Assembly (NCBI RefSeq): GCF_000970465.2
Contig: NZ_LAJE02000363.1
Location: 62,001-126,000, forward strand
DNA: 64,000 nt
Source of the DNA: Devosia insulae DS-56
GTDB taxonomy: Bacteria; Pseudomonadota; Alphaproteobacteria; Rhizobiales; Devosiaceae
Reading direction: 5' to 3'
The position numbers were made by a program, and so were the translations under genes. A model generated the notes under the pieces. The model was not told the origin of the DNA and made no database searches. It saw only the letters and a program-made list of their open reading frames with translations. Each line of letters opens with the position of its first letter. Position 1 is the stretch's first letter. Positions 2 through 38,667 of the stretch are shown in pieces.

Positions 2-1951
2 CGCCCGCGCGTCATGATCAAGCAGCCGCGGGATGCCCGCGTTGCTCCTGCCCCCGGCGATCGCATCCTGGCGCGGATCAGCGCCGGCGATGGCGAGCTG
101 CCGGACTACACGGCGCGGGCGATGAAGATCCTCGACAAGCCGCGTCGCGGCCAGATCGGCATCGTCCGTATGGACGAGGATGGCGCGCGGCTGATCCCGG
201 TCGATCGCAAGCAGAAGGAAATGCGCATCGACGGCGGCGATCTCGGCAGCGCCCGCGACGGCGACCTCGTCGAAGTCGAGATCAAGCTCACCGGCCGGCT
301 GATGATTCCCAAGGCCAAGGTGACCAACGTCATCGGGAACCCCAAATCCGAGGGGGCGGTCTCGATGATCGCCATCCATAACCTCGAGATTCCTTACCGC
401 TTCCCCGCCTCGGTGACGAAAGAAGCCGAAGACGCCAAGGAAACCACGATCAAGGGTCGCGAGGACTGGCGGCACATTCCGCTCGTCACCATCGACCCGG
501 TCGATGCCAAGGACCACGACGACGCGGTCTATGCCGAGCCCGATACCGATCCGAAGAACGCCGGCGGCCACATCGTCTATGTCGCGATCGCCGACGTCGC
601 AGCCTATGTCCGCCCCGGCACGGCGCTCGATCGCGAAGCCTATATCCGCGGCAATTCGGTCTACTTCCCCGACCGGGTGGTGCCGATGCTGCCCGAGCGC
701 ATCTCGAACGACCTCTGCTCGCTGCGCGAGGGCGAGAACCGCCCGTCGCTGGCCGTCCGCATGGTGTTCGACCAGAACGGCAAAAAGCGCAGCCACAGCT
801 TCCACCGTGTGCTGTTCCGCTCGGCCGCCAAACTCAACTACCAGCAGGCGCAGGCGGCGATCGACGGCAAGCCGGACGACAAGACCGGGCCGATCCTCGA
901 CAGCATCCTCCGCCCGCTGTGGGCCGCCTACGGCGCCATGGCGAAGGCGCGGGACAATCGCGGACCACTCGACCTCGACCTGCCCGAGCGCAAGATCATC
1001 CTCGACAAGACCGGCATGGTCGTCGACGTGAAGGTGCCCGAGCGGCTCGATGCGCACCGGCTGATCGAAGAGATGATGATCGCCGCCAATGTCGCGGCCG
1101 CCGAAACGCTGGAAAAGCACAAAAGCGCCCTGCTCTACCGGGTGCACGATACGCCGAGCCAGGAGAAGCTGGTGGCGCTGCGCGACTTCCTGAGCTCGCT
1201 GCAGCTGCCGGCGCCGAAATCGGATGCAGTGCGGCCGGCGGATTTCAACCGCATCCTCGATAAGGCGCGGACCGACGGCAAGATCCAGCAGGTGTCGGAG
1301 ATCATCCTCCGCACCCAGGCGCAGGCCGAGTATGCCGCCGAGAACTACGGACATTTCGGCCTCAACCTCGACCGCTATGCGCACTTCACGTCGCCGATCC
1401 GCCGCTATGCCGACCTGATCGTGCACCGGGCGCTGATCAGTGCGCTGGACTTGGGTAAGGATGGGCTCACCGACGGCGAGATCGCCAAGCTGCCGGGCAT
1501 CGCCCAGCACATCTCGTCAACCGAGCGCCGCGCCATGCTGGCCGAACGCGAGACCATCGACCGGCTGCTGGCGCAGTTCCTTGCCGCGCATGTCAACGCC
1601 AAGTTCGAGGGCCGCATCTCGGGCGTCACCCGCTCGGGGCTGTTCGTGCGGCTGAGGGACACCGGCGCCGATGGCTTCATCCCCGCCTCGACGCTTGGCC
1701 AGGACTATTATCGCTTCGTCGAGGAGATGCAGGCGATGGTGGGCGACCGCACCGGCGAGACCTTCCGTATCGGCGACGATGTGAGCGTCCGGCTGCTCGA
1801 AGTCGCCCCGGTTGCCGGGGCGTTGCGCTTCGAACTGCTGAGCGAAGGCAGCCGCGGCGTTCCGTCATCTGGCGGGCGTCAACGCAAAGGACCATCTACC
1901 ACTCGAGGCAAGGCGGGCGCCTATCGCAAGCTCGCCAAACGAAAGAGATAG
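2..1951 (+). CDS. rnr: Ribonuclease R, 5'-truncated by the window edge
   Basis: 3'-to-5' exoribonuclease that degrades structured RNA and takes part in RNA quality control in the cytoplasm. The frame is open from the first base, so the true start lies upstream; the ATG at 14 is not taken as the start because the family normally has a longer N-terminus (RNase R is usually above 700 residues, about 650 are visible here). The RNB catalytic domain starts around residue 150 with the acidic metal-binding cluster DPVDAKDHDDAV and runs to about residue 500. An S1 RNA-binding domain (FEGRISGVTRSGLFVRL) follows near residue 535. The C-terminal tail is basic (ending KLAKRKR), typical of RNase R rather than RNase II. 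The next gene starts 3 bases after the stop, so the two are probably cotranscribed. Confidence 0.95.
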   Translation, partial: RPRVMIKQPRDARVAPAPGDRILARISAGDGELPDYTARAMKILDKPRRGQIGIVRMDEDGARLIPVDRKQKEMRIDGGDLGSARDGDLVEVEIKLTGRLMIPKAKVTNVIGNPKSEGAVSMIAIHNLEIPYRFPASVTKEAEDAKETTIKGREDWRHIPLVTIDPVDAKDHDDAVYAEPDTDPKNAGGHIVYVAIADVAAYVRPGTALDREAYIRGNSVYFPDRVVPMLPERISNDLCSLREGENRPSLAVRMVFDQNGKKRSHSFHRVLFRSAAKLNYQQAQAAIDGKPDDKTGPILDSILRPLWAAYGAMAKARDNRGPLDLDLPERKIILDKTGMVVDVKVPERLDAHRLIEEMMIAANVAAAETLEKHKSALLYRVHDTPSQEKLVALRDFLSSLQLPAPKSDAVRPADFNRILDKARTDGKIQQVSEIILRTQAQAEYAAENYGHFGLNLDRYAHFTSPIRRYADLIVHRALISALDLGKDGLTDGEIAKLPGIAQHISSTERRAMLAERETIDRLLAQFLAAHVNAKFEGRISGVTRSGLFVRLRDTGADGFIPASTLGQDYYRFVEEMQAMVGDRTGETFRIGDDVSVRLLEVAPVAGALRFELLSEGSRGVPSSGGRQRKGPSTTRGKAGAYRKLAKRKR

Positions 1952-2814: not shown

Positions 2815-2955
2815 CTGAAGAAGCGGCTGGTCCGCGGCGGCATGTCGAAGAGGCCACTCTTGCCCGCTGCGAACCAGCCTCCCTACGGACCCAGGAGTTG
2901 CGGCGGACCTGAGGAGAACCGTAGGGGTGACTGCTGACACCGAAAGTGTCGGCGT
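2783..2955 (-). ncRNA. Candidate structured small RNA downstream of pleD
   Basis: The 395 bases between rpmG and pleD contain no convincing gene. On the minus strand they can fold into three consecutive hairpins before the terminator: GACAC/GTGTC (2936-2950); CCCTACGG/CCGTAGGG with an inner CTCAGG/CCTGGG stem (2881-2926); and GGCTGGT/ACCAGCC with an inner GCGGGCA/TGCCGC stem (2825-2879). Hairpins packed this tightly before a strong terminator look like a stable RNA or a structured 3' UTR of pleD. I could not match it to a named family: it lacks the SRP, RNase P and tmRNA signatures, and 6S RNA is not excluded. Confidence 0.45.
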
Positions 2956-24205: not shown

Positions 24206-24949
24206 TCAGTAAGGCGCGCGGATAGTGATCCCTTCGGCCTCGAGCGCAGCCCGCACGGCCCGAGCGATCGCCACCGCCTCATCGGTATCGCCGTGGATAC
24301 AGAGCGAAGTCGCCTCGGTACGGATCACCGAGCCATCAATTGCTACCAGTTCCCCCGCCCGCGCCAGCCGGACGGCGCGTTCGGCAATCGCTCCGACATC
24401 GTGCAGCACCGCGCCGGGCTGCGAGCGCGGCACCAGCAGGCCGTTGGGCTGGTAAGCGCGGTCGGCATAGGCCTCGCGCACCACCGGGTAGCCCAGTGCC
24501 TCGGCCACCTCGACCTGGGCGCTGTCATCGATCGCCAGCACCGAGAGACCCGGCACCAGCCCCGTCACTGCAGCAAAGCACAAAGCCGCCACGGCCGGTT
24601 CCTCAGCCGCCATATTGGCCAGCGCACCGTGCAGCTTGAGGTAGCGCACCGGCACACCCTCCTCCTCGGCGTACTCGACCAAGGCGCGCACCTGTCCCCG
24701 TACCTGCTCGTCCAGCTCTTCGGGTGGCAGGAACAAGCGGCGGCGACCAAAATGCTCGCGATCGGCAAAGCCCGGGTGCGCGCCAACCGCAACACCGCGT
24801 GCCTTGGCTGCCCGCAGGCTGAGCCGCATCGTCGTCTCGTCGCCGGCGTGGCCGCCACAGGCGATCGAGGCCGACGAGATGATGTCGAACAGCGCGGCAT
24901 CGCCCGGCATGCCCTCACCGAGATCGGCATTGAGATCGAGTTCGTTCAC
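24206..24949 (-). CDS. pxpA: 5-oxoprolinase subunit PxpA (LamB/YcsF)
   Basis: 247-residue LamB/YcsF family subunit of the ATP-dependent 5-oxoprolinase PxpABC, which opens the damaged-glutamine product 5-oxoproline to glutamate. The N-terminus [20 protein letters not shown] and the motifs [20 protein letters not shown] and [17 protein letters not shown] are diagnostic. The start is GTG at 24949 overlapping the pxpC stop (GTGA), so translation is coupled. Order on the minus strand is pxpB-pxpC-pxpA. Confidence 0.93.
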
Positions 24950-25836
24950 GGCTTCAGTCCTTCTGCATGCGCCACGGTCACCGGCGCGAACCGCACCTGG
25001 GTGCCGGGCCGCAGTTGGGAAAATCGGTCGAGATCGGCCGTCACCACCGTGGCGATCCGCGGGTAGCCGCCGGTCGGTTGGTGATCCCGCATCAGCACGA
25101 TGGGCGTGCCATCGCCGAGGATCTGGATATCGCCCGGCACCACGGCATCCGACACCAGCGACAGGATTTTTGCTTCGGCGAACACCTGTCCGGGATCGGC
25201 AAGCCGGACGCCCATGCGGTCGAGCTGCGGCGATACCGCGAAAGCATCGGTAACAAAGCGCTGACGGATCGCATTGCTGAAGCGGTCGGCATGAATGCCC
25301 CGGATCACCCGGATCGGGCCATCCGCCACCGTCGCCGGCGTCGGATGCTGGCCCCGCCCGCGTGGCAGCGTCGCGCCGAGCGGCAGCACATCGCCAGCCC
25401 GCAAGGCCCGCCCATCCAGACCGCCGATCCCGGCAATCGAGCTGGTTGCGCGACTGCCCATCACCAGGGGCACATCGATTTCGCGGTCGAACCGCAGGTA
25501 GCCATAGTTCCCGGCCGGACCCGGTCGGATATCCACGATAGAACCAGCGCTCAGCAGCGCCCGCGATGGCCATGATTTCGCTTCGCCATCGATGCTGAGT
25601 TCGAACGAACCACCATCGACAGCAATGGAAACCGAGCCCTCGGCAACAAAGCCGAGGCCTGCCGTGGTGAACTCGATCCCGGTCGCCCCCGCGGCGCCGA
25701 GCCAGACGCCGGCCCGCTCGAACGCCGTGCGATCCATAGGGCCGGAAGCGCTGATGCCGTGCCGCAGCAGCCCCGGTCGCCCGGCATCCTGCAACGTCGC
25801 CAGCGGGCCGGCGCGGGTGATGCGGATAGCGCTCAC
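24946..25836 (-). CDS. pxpC: 5-oxoprolinase subunit PxpC (KipA family)
   Basis: 296-residue KipA-like (CT_A_B) subunit of 5-oxoprolinase. The family start IRITRAGPLATLQDAGRPGL and the GISASGPMDRTAFERAGVWL segment are clear, as is LMRDHQPTGGYPRIATVV near the end. GTG start at 25836 overlaps the pxpB stop. The same fold occurs as an internal domain of the urea/guanidine carboxylase encoded about 4 kb away (29450-32985), so cross-annotation of these two should be avoided. Confidence 0.92.
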   Translation of the reverse strand: MSAIRITRAGPLATLQDAGRPGLLRHGISASGPMDRTAFERAGVWLGAAGATGIEFTTAGLGFVAEGSVSIAVDGGSFELSIDGEAKSWPSRALLSAGSIVDIRPGPAGNYGYLRFDREIDVPLVMGSRATSSIAGIGGLDGRALRAGDVLPLGATLPRGRGQHPTPATVADGPIRVIRGIHADRFSNAIRQRFVTDAFAVSPQLDRMGVRLADPGQVFAEAKILSLVSDAVVPGDIQILGDGTPIVLMRDHQPTGGYPRIATVVTADLDRFSQLRPGTQVRFAPVTVAHAEGLKP

Positions 25837-26480
25837 GACGCCACGAACGCTACGCTGTCGCCGGCGCGCACCGTGGTCGGGGGCTCGGCGGCCGGGTCGA
25901 AGTTGCGGAACTCGGTATGGCCGATCACGTGCCAGCCGGTCGGGATGGCGGTCGAGGTGATTGCCGTCTGCCCGGCAGCGAACAGCACCGTGCCGGCCGG
26001 CACCTGCCGCCGCACCACGCCCCGTCGCGGCACCACCAGCGCCTCGGGGTGCATGCCGCAATAGATGAAGCCCGGCGCAAAGCCGGTGGCCAGTACGCGC
26101 AGTGGCGCGGCGTTGTGGGCGGCAATAAAGTCGGCCACCAAGAGCCGCACCAGCCCTGCCACCTCGGAGAGATCCTCGCCGTCGAAATGCACGGTAACGC
26201 GGTGCTCGGCGTCCCCGGCAGCCGGCTGCCCGGGTGCCGAGACCAGCAGGCGCACCTCACCGGCCAGTGCATCGAAGCCGATGGCCCCCGGCTCATAGCG
26301 CAGCAGCACCGAAACGAGGTTCGGCACGATCTCCACCACGCCGCGCACGCCCGCGGCTTCGACCCGGGCAGCAAAGCCGATCGCTGCGCGATTGGCGTCG
26401 TCGGAAAGGCTCTCGGCGAAGCGGATCAGCAGCCCACGGTCGCCCAGGGGCAGCAGGGTTGGCGTAAGGGTGTCGGTCAT
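25833..26480 (-). CDS. pxpB: 5-oxoprolinase subunit PxpB (KipI family)
   Basis: 215-residue KipI-like (CT_C_D) subunit that works with PxpC as the ATP-dependent part of 5-oxoprolinase. Signature segments: LLPLGDRGLLIRFAESLSDD at the start, FAPGFIYCGMHPEALVVPRR near residue 138, and TAIPTGWHVIGHTEFRNFDP near the end. First gene of the pxpBCA operon; the gap to the upstream secreted-protein gene is 9 bases, so that gene may lead the transcript. Confidence 0.92.
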   Translation of the reverse strand: MTDTLTPTLLPLGDRGLLIRFAESLSDDANRAAIGFAARVEAAGVRGVVEIVPNLVSVLLRYEPGAIGFDALAGEVRLLVSAPGQPAAGDAEHRVTVHFDGEDLSEVAGLVRLLVADFIAAHNAAPLRVLATGFAPGFIYCGMHPEALVVPRRGVVRRQVPAGTVLFAAGQTAITSTAIPTGWHVIGHTEFRNFDPAAEPPTTVRAGDSVAFVAS

Positions 26481-28926: not shown

Positions 28927-29034
28927 CTAGTTCGGCGGAGGATCTTTCCTTGGCCGAACAATGCCTTTGCGGGCGGCGAGGCCGTCGCCCAGGCGATGCA
29001 GCAGCAACCGCACGGCGCGAATGACAGCGTTCAT
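28927..29034 (-). CDS. Possible 35-residue protein at the end of the guanidine operon
   Basis: A short frame, MNAVIRAVRLLLHRLG then DGLAARKGIVRPRKDPPPN, whose ATG overlaps the stop of the allophanate hydrolase-domain gene (ATGA), the spacing seen at most junctions of this operon. It is basic with an amphipathic N-terminal helix. No family recognised. Support is only the coupled overlap and an uninterrupted frame, so this could be chance. Confidence 0.35.
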   Translation of the reverse strand: MNAVIRAVRLLLHRLGDGLAARKGIVRPRKDPPPN

Positions 29035-29447
29035 CCTGCACGCTCCGCCAGAAATGCCCGCCAGCCGCCAAAGCGCGTGATCTCTTCCGCCTCGGCCACG
29101 GCATGGGCCTCGCAGAGGAACCCCGAAACGGCGGTACCGTCCTCGAGCGAGACCTTGCCGATGCCGAGCGGCGCAGGGATGGCGGCAACGAAACGGCCGA
29201 AGGCATCGGATGGCAGCGACCAGACTTCGACCTCGAGACCGGGACCGACAAAACCGGGTTCGCGCACCATGCCCGGCTTGGGCGGCGTCGTGTTGGGGAG
29301 GGCGAAGAGCCGGTAATCCGGGGAGGTGCGGCAGCGTTTGACGAACTGGCCGCCCGAGGAGGTCAGTTGCGGGTTGAGCGGCAGGCCGGTGAGATGGGCC
29401 CCGACGACCACGATGGGAAGCGCGCCGTCAGCTTGGTTCTCGGCCAT
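29031..29447 (-). CDS. Stand-alone allophanate hydrolase C-terminal domain protein
   Basis: 138-residue protein matching the C-terminal domain (gamma-glutamylcyclotransferase-like fold) of allophanate hydrolase AtzF/DUR1, which in studied enzymes acts after the amidase domain on the N-carboxycarbamate product. Characteristic stretches: VVVGAHLTGLPLNPQLTSSG, SPDYRLFALPNTTPPKPGMV, and ITRFGGWRAFLAERA. It starts at its own ATG 2 bases after the carboxylase stop with GGAG upstream, so it is not just a read-through remnant. The amidase domain (Ser-Ser-Lys triad) is absent here and elsewhere in the window. Confidence 0.85.
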   Translation of the reverse strand: MAENQADGALPIVVVGAHLTGLPLNPQLTSSGGQFVKRCRTSPDYRLFALPNTTPPKPGMVREPGFVGPGLEVEVWSLPSDAFGRFVAAIPAPLGIGKVSLEDGTAVSGFLCEAHAVAEAEEITRFGGWRAFLAERAG

Positions 29448-29449
29448 GT

Positions 29450-32400
29450 TCAGATCTCCTCTAGTACGATGATGACGTCGCCGGTTTTGACGTTGCGCCC
29501 CGGCCCGGCCCGAACGTCGCGGACGGCGCCGGCGGCGTGGGCGGTGACGGTGATTTCCATCTTCATGGATTCGATGATGGCGACCGGCTGACCCGCTTCG
29601 ACATGGGCGCCGTCCTCGACCAGGATCTTCCAGATATTGCCGGGCACCGAACTCGCCACGCCGAAGTGGCCGGTCGGGATCTCGCTGGTGTCGGCAGCAC
29701 TTGCGCCATCGTCGGCGACGAAGCTGTCGAGACCCTCTTCCTTCCAGCGCTGACGCTCGGTTTCAAAGGCCGACTGCTGGGTGCGCTTGAAGGCGCTGAT
29801 GCTGTCGGCGTTGCGGGCGAGCTCGGCCGCGTAATCCGCGTAGGAGAGCTTTGTCTCCTCGATCCGCACTGGGTAGCCGCCATGCGGGAAGGCGGCGCGC
29901 GCTTCGGTCAGCTCATCATGGCTGACCGGAAAGAAGCGGATCTGATCAAAGAAATCGAGCAGCCATGGCGACCTGGCGAAAGCAGCCGTCCGACGCCAGG
30001 TGTTCCAGACCTGGATGGTGCGGCCGAACAGCTGATAGCCGCCCGGACCTTCCATGCCGTAGATACACATATAGGCGCCGCCGATGCCTACAGCGTTCTC
30101 CGGGGTCCAGGTGCGGGCCGGGTTGTACTTGGTGGTGACGAGGCGATGGCGAGGGTCCATCGGGGTCGCGACCGGCGCACCGAGATACACATCGCCCAGA
30201 CCGAGGACGAGGTAGCTGGCATCAAAGATGGTGGCCTTTACCGCCTCGATGTCCGGCAAACCGTTGATGCGGCGAATGAACTCGATGTTGTCAGGACACC
30301 ACGGGGCATTCGGCCGGACCAGCTCCTGGTACTTCCGCATCGCCAGTTGCGCCTCGGGATCGTTCCAGCTCAGCGGCAGATGGACGATGCGGGAGGGGAC
30401 CGTGACCTGTTCCGGGACCGGAAGGGATTGCTCCATCTCCCGCAGCAATCCGAGGAGATGGCCGCGGCTGATGCGGGTCGAGTCGTAATGGATCTGGAGG
30501 GAGCGGATGCCGGGGGTGAGGTCGATGATACCGTTCCTCGCTCCGAGCCTCGCCTCCCGACGCACGGATTCCATCAGCAGGTGAACGCGGAGGCGCAAGG
30601 CGAGGTCGAGCGCCATCGGGCCGTACTCGACCAGCAGGTTGTCATCACCCTGCCGCCGGTAGACCACCGGCACGGGGCCGGCATCGGAATGGCCGACGAT
30701 GGCTGAGCCGGCCTCTCCCGGCCGGTGGATCGCCGGGCCGGCGATCGTGTCATCGGGGCGGGCGACCGGGACAAAGCGGATGCTGTCGCCTGGCTTGAAC
30801 TGGCCAAGTTTCCAAAGCTCGTCGCGCGCCATGACGGCGGGGCAGACGAAGCCGCCAAGGCTCGGCCCGTCCGGACCGAGGATGATCGGCATGTCGCCGG
30901 TGAAGTCGATGGCGCCGACGGCATAGGCGTTGTCATGCAGGTTGGACGGATGGAGGCCAGCCTCGCCACCATCGGTACGGGCCCATCTCGGCGCCGGTCC
31001 GACCAGCCGGACGCCGGTGCGCGCCGAGTTGAAGTGCACCTCATAGGCCGTCGAGAACAGGGTCTCGATATCCTGCTCAAGGAAGAAGTCCGGCGCACCG
31101 TGCGGGCCGTAGAGCACGCCGACTTCCCAGTTGCGGGTCAGCGGCGCGGGATCGGTGGCGGGGCTAGCAATTTGCCCGGCACGGCCGAGATGCAGGACCT
31201 CGCCGGCGCGCAAGGTGCCGGTGGCATGGCCACCGAACTTGCCAAGCGCGAAGGTGGCCCGGGACCCAAGCACTTCGGGCGCCGCAAGGCCGCCGGAGAA
31301 GGCGAGGTATGACCGTTGGCCCGGCCCCTCGATCGCGCCGATGCTCAGGATCTGGCCTGCGCCGATCTCGATGCGCTGGTTGTGCAGCAGCGGGGCGCCG
31401 TCGAGCTTCATGGGCATGTATGCACCCGCGAGCGCGAGCGTTGCCGGCGCATGAAACCGCAGGGTTGGTCCGGAAACCGTGAGTTCGAGCGCCGCCGTCT
31501 CATCGGCATTGCCCACGAGGCGATTGGCGTGGCGAAAGCTGCGCTCGTCCATCGGTCCCGATGGCGGCACGCCGACGTGCCACAGCCCGAGCCGGCTCGG
31601 CAGTTCCTGCAGCGAGGACTGCGCGCCGGGCGTGATGACTTCCACTACGTCCGGGGTGAAAGCGAAGCGCCGCAACGCCGTGGTCGCCACCAAACCGGAG
31701 GCGAGCAGGTCGGACGAGGCGATGGCGCGGAGGTAGTCGAGGTTGGTTTCGACGCCCGAAATGCTGGTCTCATCCAGCGCGGTGCGCAGCTTCGCGATCG
31801 CGGCCGGCCGATCATCGGCAGCGACGATGATCTTGGCCAGCATCGGATCGTAGAAACTGGTGACCTCGGTGCCGGTCTCGACCCAGGTATCGACGCGGGC
31901 GTCGCCGAACTTCACCTCAGTGAGCAATCCGGCGCTGGGCTGGAAGTTGGCATGCGGGATTTCGGCGTAGAGCCGGACCTCCATCGCCGCGCCCTTCGGC
32001 GTCAGCGGCGCAACCGGGATGACGGTTTCGCCGGCGGCCTGGCGGATCATCCACTCGACCAGATCAATGCCGAAAACCGCTTCGGTGACCGGGTGTTCGA
32101 CCTGCAGGCGGGTGTTGACCTCGAGGAAATAGAACTCCTCGCGATCGGGGTCGTAGATGAACTCGACCGTGCCGGCGGATCGATAGCCGACGGCACGGCC
32201 GAGATTCACGGCGGCCTCGTGTAGCCGATAGCGTGTGGTAGCGGAAAGCCCGGGTGCCGGCGTTTCCTCCACCACCTTCTGGTTGCGCCGCTGCAGCGAG
32301 CAGTCGCGCTCGCCCAGTGCAATCACCCTGCCCTTGCCGTCGCCGAAGAGCTGAACCTCAACATGGCGGGCGTCGGAGACGAAGCGCTCCAGATAGACCC

Positions 32401-32985
32401 GCGCATCGCCGAAGCTGGCCCGGGCGGTGCGTTGTACGCCATCGAAGGCGGCACTCAGCGCCGCTGCGTCAGCACAGAGCGACATGCCGATGCCGCCGCC
32501 GCCGGCGGTCGACTTGAGCATCACCGGGTAGCCGACCGTCTCGGCTGCCTCGAGCGCCTGCTCGGCAGTGGCGAGCAGGTCGGTGCCTGGGAGCAGTGGC
32601 ACACCGTTGGTTTTGGCCAACTCGCGAGCCGTGTGCTTGAGCCAAAAGCCTCGATGTTCTCGGGCGTCGGCCCGATAAAGGTGATGCCCTCGGCTTCGAG
32701 CCGGCGGGCAAAAGCCGTGTTCTCCGACAGGAAGCCGTAGCCGGGGTGGACCGCCTGCGCCCCAGTTGCCTTGCAGGCGGCGAGGACGGCTTCGACGTCG
32801 AGATAGCTCTCGGCGGCCGGCGCGGGGCCGAGGCGGATGGCTTCGTCAGCGAGTTGCACTGCCTTGGTGAAGCGGTCAGCGTCGGAGTAGACCGCGACCG
32901 AGCCGATGCCCATGCGCTTGAGCGTGCGGATGATGCGCACCGCGATTTCGCCGCGGTTGGCGATAAGGACCTTGGTGAACATCAC
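29450..32985 (-). pseudogene. Urea/guanidine carboxylase with a one-base frameshift
   Basis: Biotin-dependent carboxylase of about 1,178 residues if the frame is repaired, normal for urea carboxylase and the related guanidine carboxylase. Domain order: biotin carboxylase (start MFTKVLIANRGEIAVRIIRT; HPGYGFLSEN; ATP-grasp loop KSTAGGGGIGMS; EVNTRLQVEHPVTE), KipA-like domain (VGVPPSGPMDERSFRHANRL), KipI-like domain (GDVYLGAPVATPMDPRHRLV), and a biotinyl domain with ESMKMEI. The frame breaks near 32640: codons GAG GCT TTT GGC (EAFG) continue correctly as LKHTARELAKT only if one base is added after GG. Riboswitch and UAAP neighbours favour guanidine over urea as substrate. Either a true mutation or an assembly error. 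Confidence 0.85.
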
Positions 32986-33602
32986 TCGGCGTCCCAGACC
33001 AGGACCTGAATGGGCGTCGGGTTGAAGCCGTTACAGGGGTTGTTGATCTGCGGGCAGTTGGAGATGACGCAGAGCACGTCCATTTCGGCGACCAGTTCGA
33101 CATAGTCGCCGGGCTTGCTCAGCCCATCGACGATGGTCATCTCGCCCGAGGGCGAGATCGGCACGTTCATGAAGAAGTTGATGTTGGGGACGATGTCCCG
33201 CTTGCTCATGCCGTGTTTGCTCACTTCCAGCAGGAAGTTGTCACGGCAGGCGTGCAAATAGCGGGTTTCATGGCCGAAGCGGACGGTGTTGCTTTCGCAC
33301 GAGCAGGCGCCGGCCATGGTGTCATGACGACCGCAGGTGTCGGCAACCACCGTGAGCATGGTGTTGCCCTCGCTGGAGACGATCTTCGTGCCGACCCCGA
33401 CATAGGCCGAGCCCTGGGTCCGCAGCGTGTCCTGGGCGCTGTAACGTTCGGCAAAGTCGTCGGCGCGGTAGAAGATCGTGTCGACGGCCTGCTGCCCCTC
33501 GCTGTCGACGATGCGGATGGTCTGGCCTTTCCTGACGATGCCGGACCACGGCGCTTCGGCGGGGATGAAATGGGACTGGATGGCGGTGGCTGGCTGACGC
33601 AT
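32982..33602 (-). CDS. Urea carboxylase-associated protein UAAP2 (carboxyguanidine deiminase subunit)
   Basis: 206-residue DUF1989 protein of the UAAP2 type. In characterised guanidine pathways the UAAP pair (CgdAB) forms carboxyguanidine deiminase, turning carboxyguanidine to allophanate. Visible hallmarks: PWSGIVRKGQTIRIVDSEGQ, AVDTIFYRADDFAERYSAQD, a His/Cys-rich likely metal site VADTCGRHDTMAGACSCESN, and the end SNCPQINNPCNGFNPTPIQV. ATG at 33602 overlaps the UAAP1 3' end by spacing of 1 base; the stop overlaps the carboxylase ATG by 4. The assignment to CgdA or CgdB is not settled from sequence alone. Confidence 0.85.
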   Translation of the reverse strand: MRQPATAIQSHFIPAEAPWSGIVRKGQTIRIVDSEGQQAVDTIFYRADDFAERYSAQDTLRTQGSAYVGVGTKIVSSEGNTMLTVVADTCGRHDTMAGACSCESNTVRFGHETRYLHACRDNFLLEVSKHGMSKRDIVPNINFFMNVPISPSGEMTIVDGLSKPGDYVELVAEMDVLCVISNCPQINNPCNGFNPTPIQVLVWDAE

Positions 33603-33603
33603 T

Positions 33604-34416
33604 TCAGGCCCCCGCACGGGCGTTGTTCTCGAAACCGCGAACGGCTTCGGCGGTGGCGGTGCGGCAGAGGTCATCGCCCGCCACTTCGGCAACATAGCGG
33701 GTGATTTCGACGGGGTTCGGCGCGTAGACCGGCCCGGGATCGAGTGGGTGTGGACAGTTGGACAGCGCAACAAGCAGGTCCATCTCAGCGCGCAGGTCGA
33801 CATAGTGGTTGCCGTCGAGCAGGTCGGACTGCCAGGCGAAGTGGCCATCGTCATCGGAAACACGGACCGGCGCGAACAGGGTGAGCGCCATCGGCAGATC
33901 GCGTCGCGACAGGCCAAGCTTGCCGGCAGCCAGGACGAAATTATCCCGTGTGTTGCGGGTGACGGCGCCGGGATACTTTGCGGCATTGGCGGCGGCAGTG
34001 GAGCCGCCAAGCAGCACGTCATGCGCGCCGCCCGAGGAGTCCTCGGTGATCGACAGCATCACCCGGCCCATGTCGGAGAACAGCACCCTGCCCCGCTGGG
34101 CGCGGGTATCCCACTGCACCTTGACGGTATCCGGCAGGTTGAGCCGCTCGCTGGTGTCACGGGCGCTCCAGCAGACGAGGGCAACCGAGGCGAAACCGTG
34201 CGTCTGTGCGATGCGCAGGGCCTCCCCCTGGCGCAGCAGGGTCGACCAGTACCAGCCAGCGGCCAGGGTTTCGGTGGCGATGACATCGCCCGCGATCGGC
34301 GCGGCCGGCACTACGCTGGCTTCCGGCAGTGCCTTGGCGGCAAAGCTGAGGCCCTTTCTCTGGTGTTCTTCGTAGCGGGCGCGGTCGGCAGCGATCTGCT
34401 CCGGGGTTCGGCTCAT
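33604..34416 (-). CDS. Urea carboxylase-associated protein UAAP1 (carboxyguanidine deiminase subunit)
   Basis: 270-residue DUF1989 protein of the UAAP1 type, the expected partner of the downstream UAAP2. It starts MSRTPEQIAADRARYEEHQR, followed by GLSFAAKALPE; the core has VCWSARDTSERLNLPDTVKV and FSDMGRVMLSITEDSSGGAH, and it ends with SNCPHPLDPGPVYAPNPVEI. Each of the two DUF1989 subunits has a Cys/His pattern consistent with a metal-dependent heteromer. Its ATG overlaps the stop of the ABC ATPase by 4 bases. Confidence 0.85.
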   Translation of the reverse strand: MSRTPEQIAADRARYEEHQRKGLSFAAKALPEASVVPAAPIAGDVIATETLAAGWYWSTLLRQGEALRIAQTHGFASVALVCWSARDTSERLNLPDTVKVQWDTRAQRGRVLFSDMGRVMLSITEDSSGGAHDVLLGGSTAAANAAKYPGAVTRNTRDNFVLAAGKLGLSRRDLPMALTLFAPVRVSDDDGHFAWQSDLLDGNHYVDLRAEMDLLVALSNCPHPLDPGPVYAPNPVEITRYVAEVAGDDLCRTATAEAVRGFENNARAGA

Positions 34417-35237
34417 GCCGGATCTCCTTGAGGTGATGGCGCCGGGTCGTCCCGGCTGGCGCCCACCTCGTGGATCGGGCCGTCCCGATCGGGGCTGTCT
34501 GGGTCGAGAACACCGGCACGACGCGGCGGCCAGATGTCGATGTCGCGGCTGAGCGAGGCGCCGTAGCGCTCGCGCTCGTCGGGCCGGTTGCGCGGTCGCT
34601 CAAAGGCGATGACGCGGGTGCCCAGGGTGAAGGCCTCGCGCATGTCGTGGGTGACCATCACGACGGTGAGATTGGTTTCGTTCCAGAGCCGCTTCATCAG
34701 AACGTGGATCTCGGCACGGATGCCCGGATCGAGCGCGCCGAACGGCTCGTCGAGCAGCAGCACCCGCGGCTGCATGATGAGGGCTTGCGCCAGAGCCAGG
34801 CGCTGCTGCATGCCGCCGGAAAGCTGGGCCGGATACTTGTCCTCGCTGCCGGCGAGGCCGACTTCGGCGATCAGTCCACGCGCCTCTTCGATGGCGTCGC
34901 GACGGGCCGCGCCGACCAGCCGGGCGCGAAAGCGGGACGCCTCAAACTCCTTGCCGAGCAGCACGTTGCCGAGCACCGTCAGATGCGGAAACACCGAGTA
35001 ACGCTGGAACACGACACCGCGGTCGGGGCCGGGTTCGGGCGCCAACGGCTTGCCGTCGAGGACTATGGTGCCTTGTGTTGCCCGCTCTTCGCCGAGCAGC
35101 AGCTTCAGGAACGTGGTCTTGCCACAGCCGGAGGGGCCGACCAGGGCGACGAAGGCCCGGTCCTCGATGGTCAGCGACACGCGCTCGAGGACGATCTGGT
35201 CGCCGTATTCCTTCCACACATTGTTGACGACGATCAT
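34413..35237 (-). CDS. ABC transporter ATPase (NitT/TauT type, guanidine operon)
   Basis: 274-residue ATPase of a nitrate/sulfonate/taurine-type importer. Walker A GPSGCGKTTFLKLLLG near residue 35, Q-loop VVFQRYSVFPHLTV, ABC signature LSGGMQQRLALAQALI, Walker B LLLDEPFGALDP and the switch His in MVTHDMREA. The C-terminal stretch IDIWPPRRAGVLDPDSPD is an extension typical of urea carboxylase-linked ATPases. Overlaps the permease stop and the UAAP1 start by 4 bases each, so expression is tightly coupled. Confidence 0.93.
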   Translation of the reverse strand: MIVVNNVWKEYGDQIVLERVSLTIEDRAFVALVGPSGCGKTTFLKLLLGEERATQGTIVLDGKPLAPEPGPDRGVVFQRYSVFPHLTVLGNVLLGKEFEASRFRARLVGAARRDAIEEARGLIAEVGLAGSEDKYPAQLSGGMQQRLALAQALIMQPRVLLLDEPFGALDPGIRAEIHVLMKRLWNETNLTVVMVTHDMREAFTLGTRVIAFERPRNRPDERERYGASLSRDIDIWPPRRAGVLDPDSPDRDGPIHEVGASRDDPAPSPQGDPA

Positions 35238-36052
35238 GACGCCTTATCCAGTTCGGACCACGGAAAGACCCGGATGCGGACGAGATCGATCAGGACGTTG
35301 GTGAGCACGGCGAGCAGCGTGATCCAGATGACGTAGGGAAAGATCACGTCCATCGACAGGTAGCGACGGACGAGAAAAATGCGGTAGCCGAGCCCGGAAT
35401 CTGCCGAAATCGCCTCGGCCGCGATGAGGAACAGCCAGGCCGGACCGAGTTGCAGGCGAAGGCAGGTGAGAAGGCGCGGCAGGATCTGCGGCAGGACGAC
35501 ACGCAAGGCGATCTGCCAGGAATTGCCACCCAGCGTTTCGGCCTTCACCGTCTGCTCGCGCGGCAGTTCCATGACCTTGAGCGCCAGGTCGCGGATCATG
35601 ATCGGGGCAACGCCGATGACGATGAGGGTGATCTTGGATGTTTCACCCAAGCCCATGACGATGAACAGGATGGGCAGCAGGGCGAGCGGCGGCACCATCG
35701 AGACGGCGGCAAAGAACGGGGCCAGCAGCGCCCGGGCATAAGGGAACATGCCAACGACCATGCCGAAGACGAGGGCAATAAGCGTCGAGATGCCGAGGGC
35801 GGAGCAGAGGCGGCCAAGGCTCGCCAGAGTATCGGACCAGAGCAGATACTCGCCGGTGCGCGGGTCGGGCACGAAGGCCAGGCGATTGACGGCATCGGCG
35901 ATACTGCTCAGCGCCGGCAGCAGCTTGTCCGACGGGTTCTCGGCCAGGCGGGCGGTGGATCCGAGCGCATAGGCCAGCAGCAGCGCAAGGAACGGCAGCA
36001 GGGCCAGGATCAGCTGGTTGGTTCGCGATGGCTTGAGGTTGATGAGACGCAT
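35234..36052 (-). CDS. ABC transporter permease (NitT/TauT type, guanidine operon)
   Basis: 272-residue BPD_transp_1 permease with about six transmembrane segments (LILALLPFLALLLAYALGS near residue 15). The cytoplasmic coupling loop (EAA motif region) reads VKAETLGGNSWQIALRVVLP. Together with the adjacent ATPase and binding protein it should import guanidine or a related nitrogen compound across the inner membrane; the substrate is inferred from the riboswitch, not from the permease. 108 bases, including a hairpin element, separate it from the binding-protein gene. Confidence 0.92.
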   Translation of the reverse strand: MRLINLKPSRTNQLILALLPFLALLLAYALGSTARLAENPSDKLLPALSSIADAVNRLAFVPDPRTGEYLLWSDTLASLGRLCSALGISTLIALVFGMVVGMFPYARALLAPFFAAVSMVPPLALLPILFIVMGLGETSKITLIVIGVAPIMIRDLALKVMELPREQTVKAETLGGNSWQIALRVVLPQILPRLLTCLRLQLGPAWLFLIAAEAISADSGLGYRIFLVRRYLSMDVIFPYVIWITLLAVLTNVLIDLVRIRVFPWSELDKAS

Positions 36053-36160: not shown

Positions 36161-37228
36161 CTACAGCGCGCCCTCTGCCGCGGCCTTCATGTAGACGTCC
36201 GAGAACCGCAGCTTGATGTTGTTGGCGTCGCCGAGCACCGCGCCACCCGGCAGCTCGATGCCGATGACGTCGGCGGAGGCGGCGCCCGAACCGAGCAGGC
36301 CCTTGTCGAAGAGGAAGGTGCGGACCTTGTCCATCGTCACCTTGAGGTCGGGCGAGGTGGTGAAGGTCACGGCTTCCGCCGCGGTCGGGAACAGTTTGGT
36401 CGCGGCGAGCTGGGACTCGAAACCGGCCTGATCGGTGCCCGAGGCGGCGCCCATCGCGGCGCGGGCCGCCGCCCCTTCGGGGGTTTGGGCGGTCATCACG
36501 GCCATGGTGTCGTACCAGATGCCGGCCAGCGCCTTGCCGAAATCGGGGTTGTCGGTGAGCACCTGGGTGTTGGCGACCATCATGTCGATGATCTCGCCGG
36601 GGACCTGCGCGCTGTCGAACACCTTGTGGGCGCCGGGCAGAGCAGCGATCTCGGAGACCATCGGGTTCCAGGTCACCATGGCGCTGACATCGGCGGTCTG
36701 GAAGGCGCCGACCATATCGGGGTCCGAGGTGTTGACGACGTTGACGTCGCGCTCGGTCATGCCGACGCTCTCGAGCGCGCGCGCCAGCAGATAATGCGAC
36801 ACCGAGAACTCGACGAGGTTGACCGGAAGCCCCTTGATGTCGGCAAGGGCAGTCTTGTCCTTGAGGATCACCGCGTCGTTGCCGGCCGAGAAATCGCCGA
36901 TGATCACCGCAGTGGTGTCGACGCCGCCGGCGGACGGGATGGAGAGGCCATCCATGTTGGTGAGGGTCACCGCGTCATAGGCGCCGGCGGTGTATTGGTT
37001 CATCGACTCGACGTAGTCGTTGAATTGCGTGACCTCGATGGTGATGCCGTATTTGTCGGCCCATTTCTTGACGATGCCGGTGTCGGCGGCATAGCCCCAG
37101 GGCATCCAGCCGACATAGATCGACCAGGCCACCTTGAAGTCGGTCTTCTGCTGCGCCTCGACGGTGGTCGCGCCGGCGGCGATGAGCGCCGTGAGCGCGA
37201 GGGCTGAAACCAGTTTGGTGATCTTCAT
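36161..37228 (-). CDS. ABC transporter substrate-binding protein (guanidine operon)
   Basis: 355-residue periplasmic binding protein. The signal peptide is MKITKLVSALALTALIAAG with cleavage after VEA (about residue 25). The mature protein starts with TDFKVAWSIYVGWMPWGYAA, the N-terminus typical of binding proteins next to urea carboxylase genes, and has the two-lobed NMT1/TauA fold. First gene of the operon and the one directly controlled by the guanidine-I riboswitch: its ATG lies 72 bases after the aptamer. A longer open frame upstream runs through the riboswitch and is rejected. Confidence 0.93.
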   Translation of the reverse strand: MKITKLVSALALTALIAAGATTVEAQQKTDFKVAWSIYVGWMPWGYAADTGIVKKWADKYGITIEVTQFNDYVESMNQYTAGAYDAVTLTNMDGLSIPSAGGVDTTAVIIGDFSAGNDAVILKDKTALADIKGLPVNLVEFSVSHYLLARALESVGMTERDVNVVNTSDPDMVGAFQTADVSAMVTWNPMVSEIAALPGAHKVFDSAQVPGEIIDMMVANTQVLTDNPDFGKALAGIWYDTMAVMTAQTPEGAAARAAMGAASGTDQAGFESQLAATKLFPTAAEAVTFTTSPDLKVTMDKVRTFLFDKGLLGSGAASADVIGIELPGGAVLGDANNIKLRFSDVYMKAAAEGAL

Positions 37229-37233
37229 GCGCA

Positions 37234-37256
37234 ATCCCCTGTTTCGACTTGGGGAT
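37234..37256 (-). promoter_or_regulatory. Hairpin over the ribosome binding site of the binding-protein gene
   Basis: On the minus strand ATCCCC pairs with GGGGAT around AAGTCGAAACA, ending 5 bases before the ATG at 37228. The right arm contains the only purine-rich ribosome binding candidate (AGGGGA). Its position between the aptamer and the start codon makes it the likely expression platform for translational control, though this is inferred from a 6-bp stem. Confidence 0.45.
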
Positions 37257-37299
37257 CGGCGATGGCGCGTAAAGACCCGCGCTGCCAATCCCTTGGCTA

Positions 37300-37410
37300 C
37301 GAGGTCTCCCGGGCTTTTGTCCCGCCGTGTCCCGGAGGGATGTCTCCCGCTCCGGTGGATGCTCTCGGACCTGACGCGCCGGATACGTACCGGCGCCGGA
37401 ACCCTAGCTC
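37300..37410 (-). ncRNA. Guanidine-I riboswitch (ykkC-yxkD class)
   Basis: The minus strand carries the conserved blocks of the ykkC subtype 1 aptamer in order: CTAGGGTTCCG (37407-37397), GGTCCGAGAG (37371-37362), and ACGGCGGGACAAAAGCCCGG followed by GAGA (37328-37305). Between them are stem-forming segments (CGGCGCCGG, CCGGAGCGGGAGACATCCCTCCGG). This class binds guanidinium and turns on export, detoxification or catabolic genes; carboxylase/UAAP/ABC operons are a known target. It lies directly between the sigma-54 promoter and the binding-protein gene. Confidence 0.93.
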
Positions 37411-37429
37411 CTAACTCTGGATACAATGG

Positions 37430-37445
37430 AGCAAGGGCCGTGCCA
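37430..37445 (-). promoter_or_regulatory. Sigma-54 (RpoN) promoter of the guanidine operon
   Basis: Read on the minus strand, TGGCACG-GCCC-TTGCT matches the -24/-12 consensus TGGCACG-N4-TTGCW at every defined base. The start point predicted about 12 bases beyond TTGC (near 37420) falls just before the first conserved riboswitch block. Suggests nitrogen-limitation control through an enhancer-binding protein such as NtrC; no convincing NtrC site was identified upstream. Confidence 0.8.
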
Positions 37446-37560
37446 GACTTGAATGCTGTTGCCTTTCAGACTCTTAGATGATGCGCCCACTGTCGGCCAG
37501 GCGGTGCCATGTCGAATGCGGGAGCAACCTGCACACAAAGTAGGCGCTGCGCAGCGCTTC

Positions 37561-38484
37561 TTACCGGGTGATGGCGGGCGCGCCCGCGCTGGCTCCCAGG
37601 TACCGTTCTTCCCACCAGGTAAAGAGCATGTCGCGCAGCGCTGCGCCGTCATCATTGCCGTAGAGCGGCTGGCGCGCCGCGTCGAACAGCAGGGCCTCTT
37701 CCTCCGTCAGCGTGACGACAAGCTCTTCGATGCGGATCGGCACATTGGTGAAGGCTGGGGCGTAGCTGGGATCGCGGTAGAGTTCCCGGTCGGCCTTGAT
37801 GACGGGCTGGCGGAAATCCTGCGGCGTGCGCTGGCTGCGCAGGACGGGCGTCGGCGGGACACTGGCGAGGTCCGACTCGGTTGCCTCGAACACGGTGAGC
37901 CGGATCGGCTTCAGCGAGAAATTCGAGGTGCGCATGATGTCGGCGCCACAGACATTGGGCACGGCGAGCACATCGGTCAACGCCAGCAGGTCGACATGGT
38001 CCCCTGCCCGGCTCGACTGCCGGGTGATGGCCGCCCGACCGTCGGCACCGACTTCGGTGTTCATGAAGAAGTTGAAGCTGTCATGCACATCGTCCGGGGT
38101 CAGACCATACTCGCGCTGCGCCTCGGACTGGATGTCATGGCAGTTGGTGTGATCGTGAAAGCCGTAGGCGCTTTCGTAGAGATAGGCCGAGCAGCGCGGG
38201 AACAGCACGTCGTTACGCTTGACGGTATCCTTGAGGATATAGAGCAGCGCCCGCTCGCGCGGCGGCTGGCTCCACAGGAACGCGCCTTCGGTGGGGTTGA
38301 AGCCGTGCACCGTACGGGTGCGTCCGCAATGCATGAACTCCTTGTAGTCGTGCAGGTTGAAGGCGTTGAAATCGACGCATTGCCCGCCCTCCACCTGCTC
38401 GATGCGGAGGATCTGACCGGCGAGCAGCTCGAACGCCTTGCCGGTGCCTGGCTGCAGCATCAGGGTCTGGAGCACGGTTCTCAT
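37561..38484 (-). CDS. DUF1989 family protein (third urea carboxylase-associated paralog)
   Basis: 307-residue protein with a DUF1989 domain like UAAP1/UAAP2 but longer. Core segments: GGQCVDFNAFNLHDYKEFMH, RSSRAGDHVDLLALTDVLAV, and YGFHDHTNCHDIQSEAQREY with a His/Cys-rich likely metal site. The C-terminal about 70 residues (IRIEELVVTLTEEEALLFDA onward) are not part of the usual UAAP domain. It starts at an ATG overlapping the stop of a 47-residue ribbon-helix-helix gene. It stands upstream of the sigma-54 promoter, so it is a separate unit. Function unknown; a deiminase/hydrolase on a guanidine-like compound is possible. Confidence 0.8.
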   Translation of the reverse strand: MRTVLQTLMLQPGTGKAFELLAGQILRIEQVEGGQCVDFNAFNLHDYKEFMHCGRTRTVHGFNPTEGAFLWSQPPRERALLYILKDTVKRNDVLFPRCSAYLYESAYGFHDHTNCHDIQSEAQREYGLTPDDVHDSFNFFMNTEVGADGRAAITRQSSRAGDHVDLLALTDVLAVPNVCGADIMRTSNFSLKPIRLTVFEATESDLASVPPTPVLRSQRTPQDFRQPVIKADRELYRDPSYAPAFTNVPIRIEELVVTLTEEEALLFDAARQPLYGNDDGAALRDMLFTWWEERYLGASAGAPAITR

Positions 38485-38624
38485 TTGGCGCGCCGTCCCG
38501 CGTGCTCGCGGATGGCCAGCTTCACTAATGCCGCGCGGTCGGGTGCAGCGCCCTTGGCGATGGTGCGGTCGATCAGTTCGAGCTGCTGCTGGTTGAGCTT
38601 GAGAATAATGGTCCTGGCCGGCAT
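38481..38624 (-). CDS. Ribbon-helix-helix mini-protein (47 residues)
   Basis: MPARTIILKLNQQQLELIDR followed by TIAKGAAPDRAALVKLAIRE, a compact strand-helix-helix pattern like CopG/Arc-type DNA-binding proteins. GGAGG lies 8 bases upstream of the ATG. The stop overlaps the DUF1989 gene start by 4 bases, so the two are coupled. No toxin gene follows, which argues against an antitoxin; it may be an autoregulator of the DUF1989 gene. Confidence 0.65.
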   Translation of the reverse strand: MPARTIILKLNQQQLELIDRTIAKGAAPDRAALVKLAIREHAGRRAK

Positions 38625-38653
38625 GCGCCCCTCCCGTTTCGAATACCAAAACT

Positions 38654-38667
38654 GTATACATGATTGG
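38654..38667. promoter_or_regulatory. Operator-like repeat, left copy
   Basis: GTATACATGATTGG, 30 bases before the start of the ribbon-helix-helix gene. It contains the palindrome TGTATACA and matches the right copy (38795-38808) at 12 of 14 bases. Candidate site for the divergent GntR regulator. Confidence 0.45.

Follow-up and report, generated by a model that had tools for sequence, protein, structure and literature searches.

A probable guanidine-scavenging operon in Devosia insulae with a predicted sigma-54 start at a Guanidine-I riboswitch and a Guanidine-II riboswitch inside its ATPase gene

The Guanidine-I and Guanidine-II riboswitch classes both sense guanidine, and to our knowledge it is unclear whether bacteria sense it as a poison or as food. 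Guanidine-I (RF00442) is known from guanidine carboxylase operons with genes for an importer, a carboxyguanidine deiminase and a carboxylase, and Guanidine-II (mini-ykkC, RF01068), known from 5' leaders, has two hairpins, each with an ACGR loop, shortly before a ribosome site. Nitrogen-scavenging promoters controlled by NtrC and sigma-54 carry a -24/-12 box with a TGC-N11-GCA dyad some 100 nt upstream. An operon with two RNA sensors is described in Bacillota, in which a T-box stands in tandem with a guanidine riboswitch (PMC12452182).

Here, we analysed a stretch of 64,000 nucleotides from Devosia insulae DS-56 (the window; contig NZ_LAJE02000363.1 of a draft genome of 5.75 Mb in 410 contigs). 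The locus has the aptamer family and the importer, deiminase and carboxylase genes of the RF00442 operons, but here a sigma-54 start is predicted at the aptamer edge and a second riboswitch class lies inside the operon. The Guanidine-II RNA has the same two hairpins just before a ribosome site, whereas most copies studied here lie mid-operon, inside the frame of the upstream gene. The box and the putative dyad resemble those of NtrC/sigma-54 promoters, but here the predicted +1 borders a riboswitch aptamer, so that promoter and riboswitch controls would share one junction. Unlike the tandem of T-box and guanidine riboswitch, the two sensors belong to two classes with one ligand, and each precedes its own gene module. 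In the open-licence PMC literature, we found no report of a sigma-54 promoter paired with a guanidine riboswitch, and an S. meliloti RpoN promoter table (PMC3616915, 112 start sites) may hold a start of this kind; no report of a second riboswitch class within a guanidine operon was found in the same literature. As far as these searches show, the parts are of known kinds and their stacked arrangement, with a sigma-54 start at the aptamer edge and an in-gene riboswitch of a second class at the module border, is new.

The predicted sigma-54 start and the Guanidine-I riboswitch

The original prediction had placed a perfect RpoN -24/-12 match, a guanidine-I aptamer with its conserved blocks and an ABC gene within about 220 bases of the minus strand. 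A motif scan bears this out, as the box (Table 1) has GG at -24, GC at -12 and a spacer of 10 bases, is the sole zero-mismatch match within the 64-kb window and lies 218 bases from the ATG of the first gene, which encodes a binding protein as predicted. Counting from the GC at -13/-12 of the box gives a predicted +1 at 37419, close to the start near 37420 that had been expected just before the riboswitch, and the first position of the Guanidine-I model, 37418, is one base past it. A covariance-model search of the aptamer region, which had been proposed as a check, gave a significant match. The gap between the aptamer end and the binding-protein ATG (37228) is 75 bases and not the 72 first given.

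Table 1. Features of the operon region (positions in the window)
Feature	Position	Strand	Evidence or remark
Putative NtrC-type upstream activator region	37517..37546	-	Motif match
Sigma-54 -24/-12 box, TGGCACGGCCCTTGCT	37430..37445	-	Motif scan, zero mismatches
Guanidine-I riboswitch aptamer	37304..37418	-	Rfam RF00442 positions 1-107, 79.9 bits, gathering 63, E 1.3e-12
Likely translational expression platform	37229..37303	-	Suggested by sequence and folds
Platform element A, GGGATTGGC	37284..37292	-
Platform element B, GCCGATCCCC	37251..37260	-	Complement of A
Platform element C, AGGGGATTG	37232..37240	-	Near copy of A, contains ribosome site
Substrate-binding protein, urea-carboxylase-linked ABC importer (putative guanidine importer)	36161..37228	-	TIGR03427 'ABC_peri_uca' 537.7 bits, cut-off 333.9
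ABC permease (TauC/SsuC/NtrB-like)	35234..36052	-	Every match under curated cut-offs
ABC ATPase	34413..35237	-	Final ~25 codons hold Guanidine-II
Guanidine-II (mini-ykkC) riboswitch in ATPase frame, peptide PDRDGPIHEVGASRDDPA...	34442..34491	-	Rfam RF01068 35.1 bits, gathering 32
AAGGAG ribosome site of UAAP1	34424..34429	-	12 nt past Guanidine-II (sequence)
UAAP1, likely carboxyguanidine deiminase subunit (DUF1989 family)	33604..34416	-	TIGR03425 259 bits, cut-off 205.95
UAAP2, likely second carboxyguanidine deiminase subunit	32982..33647 (stretch analysed; start codon unsettled)	-	TIGR03424 341.2 bits, cut-off 284.7
Guanidine carboxylase (family name: urea carboxylase)	29450..32985	-	TIGR02712 1572.2 bits; Biotin_carb_N in other frame
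Stand-alone allophanate hydrolase C-terminal domain (AH_C), directly after carboxylase	29031..29447	-	PF21986 168 bits

The box was sought in the ~200-210 nt upstream of each aptamer at 120 Guanidine-I loci (39 from a family search and 81 from an order search), with dinucleotide shuffles as the control. With 0, at most 1 and at most 2 mismatches, it was present at 35, 88 and 104 of the 120 loci, compared with 0.02, 0.17 and 1.65 in the shuffles. At 103 of the 120 loci the box with at most 2 mismatches lies 4-15 nt before the aptamer, a recurrence which shows that its place beside Guanidine-I is not due to chance. Three further loci over the cut-off have the box 11 nt before the aptamer, so that it is in place at 106 of 123 family and order loci and missing at this stringency from 17. 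Boxes 38 nt (L142) and 140 nt (L236) upstream of the aptamer were both scored as out of place. As negative controls, the cobalamin and TPP riboswitches of 21 related genomes had the box at up to 2 mismatches in 0 of 30 cases (30 of the 47 listed matches) and 0 of 25 cases (25 of 25), respectively.

In the rest of the class, the box (at most 2 mismatches) was found at 22 of 29 loci (shuffles, 0.53 of 29), 21 of them with it 4-14 nt before the aptamer; three of the 29 (L235-L237) are below the cut-off. Two class loci without the box show a TGGCAC-type sequence ending in TTGA at the equivalent position, and three of the four f94 class loci have another promoter-like sequence. In three class genomes of one family (L218, L224 and L229), TTTGCTGTAATTG(T/C)ATACA precedes the aptamer in place of the -24/-12 box and is perhaps another promoter or an operator. 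The phylum sample, of which one locus (G1080) belongs to the class of the window, has the box at 19 of 22 loci (shuffles, 0.38), always 39-77 nt upstream of the aptamer; since the box is shared but its distance is not, a start at the aptamer edge seems to characterise the class of the window. Left out were the family matches G053 and G132 and the order matches below the cut-off, G445 at a contig edge, class matches without a fetched locus (second matches of G834 and G755, and G592) and phylum matches without a locus, and one family match below the cut-off (G068:C13:110038-110140) was retained.

At 80 named loci, which overlap the other sets and in which the core was located by pattern and not by Rfam, the aptamer core is present in all 80 and the box is in place in 71. 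Rhizobium johnstonii 3841 (L370) carries the box TGGCACGCACTTTGCT with a gap of 11, plus an in-frame Guanidine-II. The nine exceptions are one Allorhizobium locus and eight Rhodobacterales loci named Rhodobacter, Tabrizicola, Rhodovulum or Sinirhodobacter. The latter (L339, L341, L380, L381, L390, L400, L407 and L408) keep the Guanidine-I core with no -24/-12 box nearby, and all except L407 match the Guanidine-II model. These boxless loci are a natural swap of promoter type.

Upstream of the box in the window, an exact TGC-N11-GCA (37533-37517, minus strand; centre at -106 from the predicted +1) overlaps CGCCTACTTTGTGTGCA (37546-37530), which has 2 mismatches to the dyad TGCNCA-N5-TGNGCA. The exact site is weak singly, as shuffles yield one in about a tenth of such regions (10.9 of 103). 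The same motif was found in 43 of the 103 order and family upstream regions, and a scan of half-site spacers in these regions gave a single prominent length (54 versus 18). The fuller alpha-type dyad was derived from the same 103 regions, so that its enrichment there is partly circular, and the fair tests are the published TGC-N11-GCA and the held-out class set, in which this dyad (at most 2 mismatches) was found at 18 of 27 loci compared with 3.9 in shuffles (L236 and L237 having been dropped). In the phylum sample it was not enriched (4 of 22 versus 3.5). The classic NtrC consensus TGCACC-N5-GGTGCA, at up to 2 mismatches, was found in none of the 103 order and family regions and in 1 of 27 class regions (0.3 in shuffles), and 5-mer inverted repeats upstream showed no excess over shuffles. 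An rpoN gene (one match, 418.9 bits, cut-off 277.35) and one NtrC above the cut-off (680.5 bits, cut-off 558.6) are encoded in the genome.

Downstream of the aptamer, element B of the likely platform can pair with A or with C, the two pairings being mutually exclusive, and in the ligand-free fold of the window B is paired with C. Element A is found in 28 of 84 importer loci, 27 of which, the window included, show A, B and C by eye; the remainder have other layouts, and L182 has A with B missing. This platform fits a translational switch, presumably of the ON type.

Both the aptamer and the promoter can be read in another way. Guanidine-I in Firmicutes is often a terminator switch, and in folds of the first 40 of the 84 importer loci, some other loci of the order show the 3' strand of the aptamer paired with a GC-rich hairpin downstream, which speaks for transcription termination. 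In the window and 26 other loci, by contrast, the hairpin downstream masks the ribosome site, with an antagonist copy farther upstream (by eye), and in the window no U-run follows the hairpin; termination is a possibility that we consider rather unlikely, and hiding of the ribosome site is preferred. As for the promoter, a real box could be served by a sigma-54 enhancer-binding protein other than NtrC, in which case the first signal would not be general nitrogen limitation. The genome encodes four NtrC-like proteins above 300 bits, including the NtrC itself, so that the activator could be another of them, the dyad of the window is weak, and 36 of the 103 order loci have no dyad at up to 2 mismatches. 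Against this, the phylum sample is enriched in the classic NtrC consensus (6 of 22 loci versus 0.4 in shuffles), and the dyad type agrees with the TGC-N11-GCA motif footprinted for rhizobial NtrC (PMC10746234). In an ntrC mutant of B. cenocepacia H111 under nitrogen limitation, a urea carboxylase gene is down 6.0-fold, and zero reads are seen for the binding-protein and UAAP-type genes linked to it (PMC5491218). COG3665 is the UAAP/DUF1989 family. A 2025 survey gives 102 COG3665 genes as sigma-54 regulated, 59% of them named urea carboxylase (PMC12316311), and with the H111 data this provides a precedent for control of the gene family by sigma-54 and NtrC. A different activator appears unlikely, and NtrC is the activator that these motifs suggest.

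Operon genes and the Guanidine-II riboswitch

On the minus strand, the genes follow in the order binding protein, permease, ATPase, UAAP1, UAAP2, carboxylase and finally an allophanate hydrolase C-terminal domain that stands by itself. Of the named matches of the binding protein, the two best are from Devosia MAGs (86% identity). We take UAAP1 and UAAP2 to be the two subunits of the heteromeric deiminase. A third gene of the DUF1989 family lies upstream at 37561-38661 (minus strand), with 115 bases between its end and the -24 box. Carboxyguanidine deiminase is described as a heteromer of the PF09347 family (PMC11410670). When the carboxylase was aligned with K. lactis urea amidolyase (positions counted by hand), Asp was found at the position of Asn1330 (GAIDFTGD versus GAINFTGD) and Asp1584 was retained (LGLGDVYLG). 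Asp at K. lactis positions 1330 and 1584 has been used to recognise guanidine carboxylases, and Asp at 1330 distinguishes them from urea carboxylases (PMC11410670). The carboxylase frame switches near 32641-32647 and is not continuous in this assembly, while the enzyme of the same-genus relative G088 is a single frame of 1178 aa. The change reflects an error of the draft assembly or else a genuine inactivation, and in view of the broken frame we do not claim that this assembly encodes an active enzyme. The AH_C gene matches only positions 433-563 of TIGR02713, and a full allophanate hydrolase (755.4 bits) is encoded on another contig of the genome. Elsewhere in the window, we observed the small RNA EcpR1 (Atu_C6) at 2820-2928 (minus strand, 85.4 bits) and the 5-oxoprolinase subunit PxpA at 24206-24955 (minus strand), whose neighbours at 24946-26480 (minus strand) resemble partner subunits by eye.

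An Rfam scan of the window revealed a Guanidine-II riboswitch that the original prediction had not noticed. It has two hairpins with ACGR loops and lies wholly inside the ATPase frame, 25 nt before the ATG of UAAP1, the start codon of which overlaps the ATPase stop as ATGA. Among the 120 fetched loci, 39 have an Rfam Guanidine-II (E at most 0.001) downstream of Guanidine-I on the same strand, mostly at a distance of ~2.8-3.1 kb; three of these 39 (G059, G097 and G360) are below gathering, at 30.4-31.5 bits. A model built from 30 of the 39 copies located Guanidine-II in four additional loci; the copies of L170, L141 and L105 are at 26.1-29.2 bits, below gathering, and L117 is unlisted. In L141, Guanidine-II (251-298, minus strand) lies ~300 nt from Guanidine-I (601-712, plus strand), and this opposite-strand pair possibly marks divergent guanidine-controlled genes.

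Guanidine-II was found at 42 of the 43 junctions between importer (ATPase) and enzyme genes, the junction of L182 being present with Guanidine-II missing, and in 1 of 77 loci without a visible junction, a locus that is cut off ahead of it. These counts come from related loci, for which the Fisher value was not used as a probability, and five of the 77 (L131, L145, L173, L181 and L197) end soon after the ATPase gene. In the other 76 loci, a search with the Guanidine-II model gave nothing above 22.6 bits. Where UAAP1 is apart from the importer, ten loci have Guanidine-I directly before UAAP1. Taken together, the loci examined show an enzyme module that almost always comes with a guanidine sensor of its own. 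In the ligand-free fold of the window, the Guanidine-II linker pairs with a stretch before the ribosome site; this pairing is weakly general, with a mean z of -0.58 over 37 loci (14 with z of -1 or lower and 3 with z of 1 or higher; 2 of the 39 loci were omitted as having no recognisable ribosome site).

The position of the RNA relative to the ATPase frame varies. Of 39 Rfam-located copies, 29 are entirely within the frame, 2 contain the stop and 8 follow it; the overlapping set of 77 model-located copies from the 80 named loci divides into 56, 15 and 6. In an alignment of 30 rows (29 distinct), two-sided changes were found in 6 of 13 pairs, compared with 3.5 in shuffles (2 of 500 reach it), and covariation was 0.172 versus 0.100 (attained by 0 of 500 shuffles, with lower values in slid controls), although related sequences can exceed shuffles even without structure. 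Further pair types, a weaker measure, numbered 12 versus 9.8 (43 of 500 shuffles reach it).

The Guanidine-II match could be a by-product of a conserved ATPase tail with an RDDP repeat, and not a working RNA, as most in-frame copies share one frame and similar peptides (DRDDP..RDDP), the score in the window is only 3 bits above the Rfam threshold, and three of the 39 Rfam-located copies are under it. However, some stem changes are compensatory, so that the pair is retained although both amino acids differ (R to Q with P to L), and the loop variation ACGA/ACGG turns D into G. In G435 the RNA occupies another frame and encodes a different peptide, at least two Rhodobacterales loci (L341 and L408) have the second hairpin in another frame, and the stop lies inside or ahead of the RNA in the copies counted above. 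The frame comparison led us to reject the coding explanation, because the RNA is kept while the peptide, the frame and the stop position vary; with the compensatory changes and the covariation, a protein-only cause is very unlikely, and we give it almost no weight. A working riboswitch is the reading retained. The substrate could likewise be urea or methylguanidine in place of guanidine, and the family names, urea carboxylase and urea transporter, point to the former, but Guanidine-I and Guanidine-II are both established sensors of guanidine. For methylguanidine, demethylation genes are known in a related operon (PMC12508155); the Asp aligned with K. lactis 1330, which separates guanidine from urea carboxylases (PMC11410670), speaks against this reading. 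We regard these substrates as quite improbable and guanidine as the probable one.

Proposed order of control and its meaning

The original prediction had proposed dual control by sigma-54 and guanidine. This part is favoured by the comparative evidence, since the box is in a fixed place, NtrC-type dyads lie upstream, rpoN and ntrC are in the genome and the carboxylase has the guanidine-type residues; two-layer control of the operon is thus supported at the level of sequence. It was incomplete, as the in-gene Guanidine-II would add a third layer. The sequence elements, their conservation and their places are observed, and they probably form a guanidine-scavenging operon with three stacked gates, NtrC/sigma-54, Guanidine-I for the importer and Guanidine-II for the enzymes. 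Under nitrogen limitation, NtrC or a related enhancer-binding protein would let sigma-54 polymerase start the transcript at the aptamer edge. Guanidine-I would then control synthesis of the importer, most likely by freeing the ribosome site, and Guanidine-II, at the end of the ATPase gene, would control translation of the downstream deiminase and carboxylase, so that the ATP-consuming enzymes would be made only once guanidine is inside. From the elements we infer that NtrC is the activator, that both switches turn expression on, that they act on translation and that the importer is made before the enzymes. Translation through the ATPase gene would unfold Guanidine-II, which counts against the third gate. 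Whether the whole forms a conserved relay in Alphaproteobacteria, in which an NtrC/sigma-54 start at the aptamer edge and a Guanidine-I importer are followed by an in-gene Guanidine-II that releases the enzymes as imported guanidine rises, we judge to be evenly balanced; in such a relay, Guanidine-II would perhaps toggle the coupling of stop and start at the ATGA junction when a ribosome exits the ATPase gene.

The operon offers a clear example of one ligand served by two unrelated RNA sensors, placed at the two modules of a single operon, and one of the two sensors shares its letters with a protein-coding tail, so that searches confined to leaders and intergenic gaps would miss it. A promoter of the nitrogen-starvation type stands beside Guanidine-I in most proteobacterial loci examined and is missing from two other riboswitch families, which, on the question of poison or food, points to food for these operons and makes that question testable in ordinary soil bacteria.
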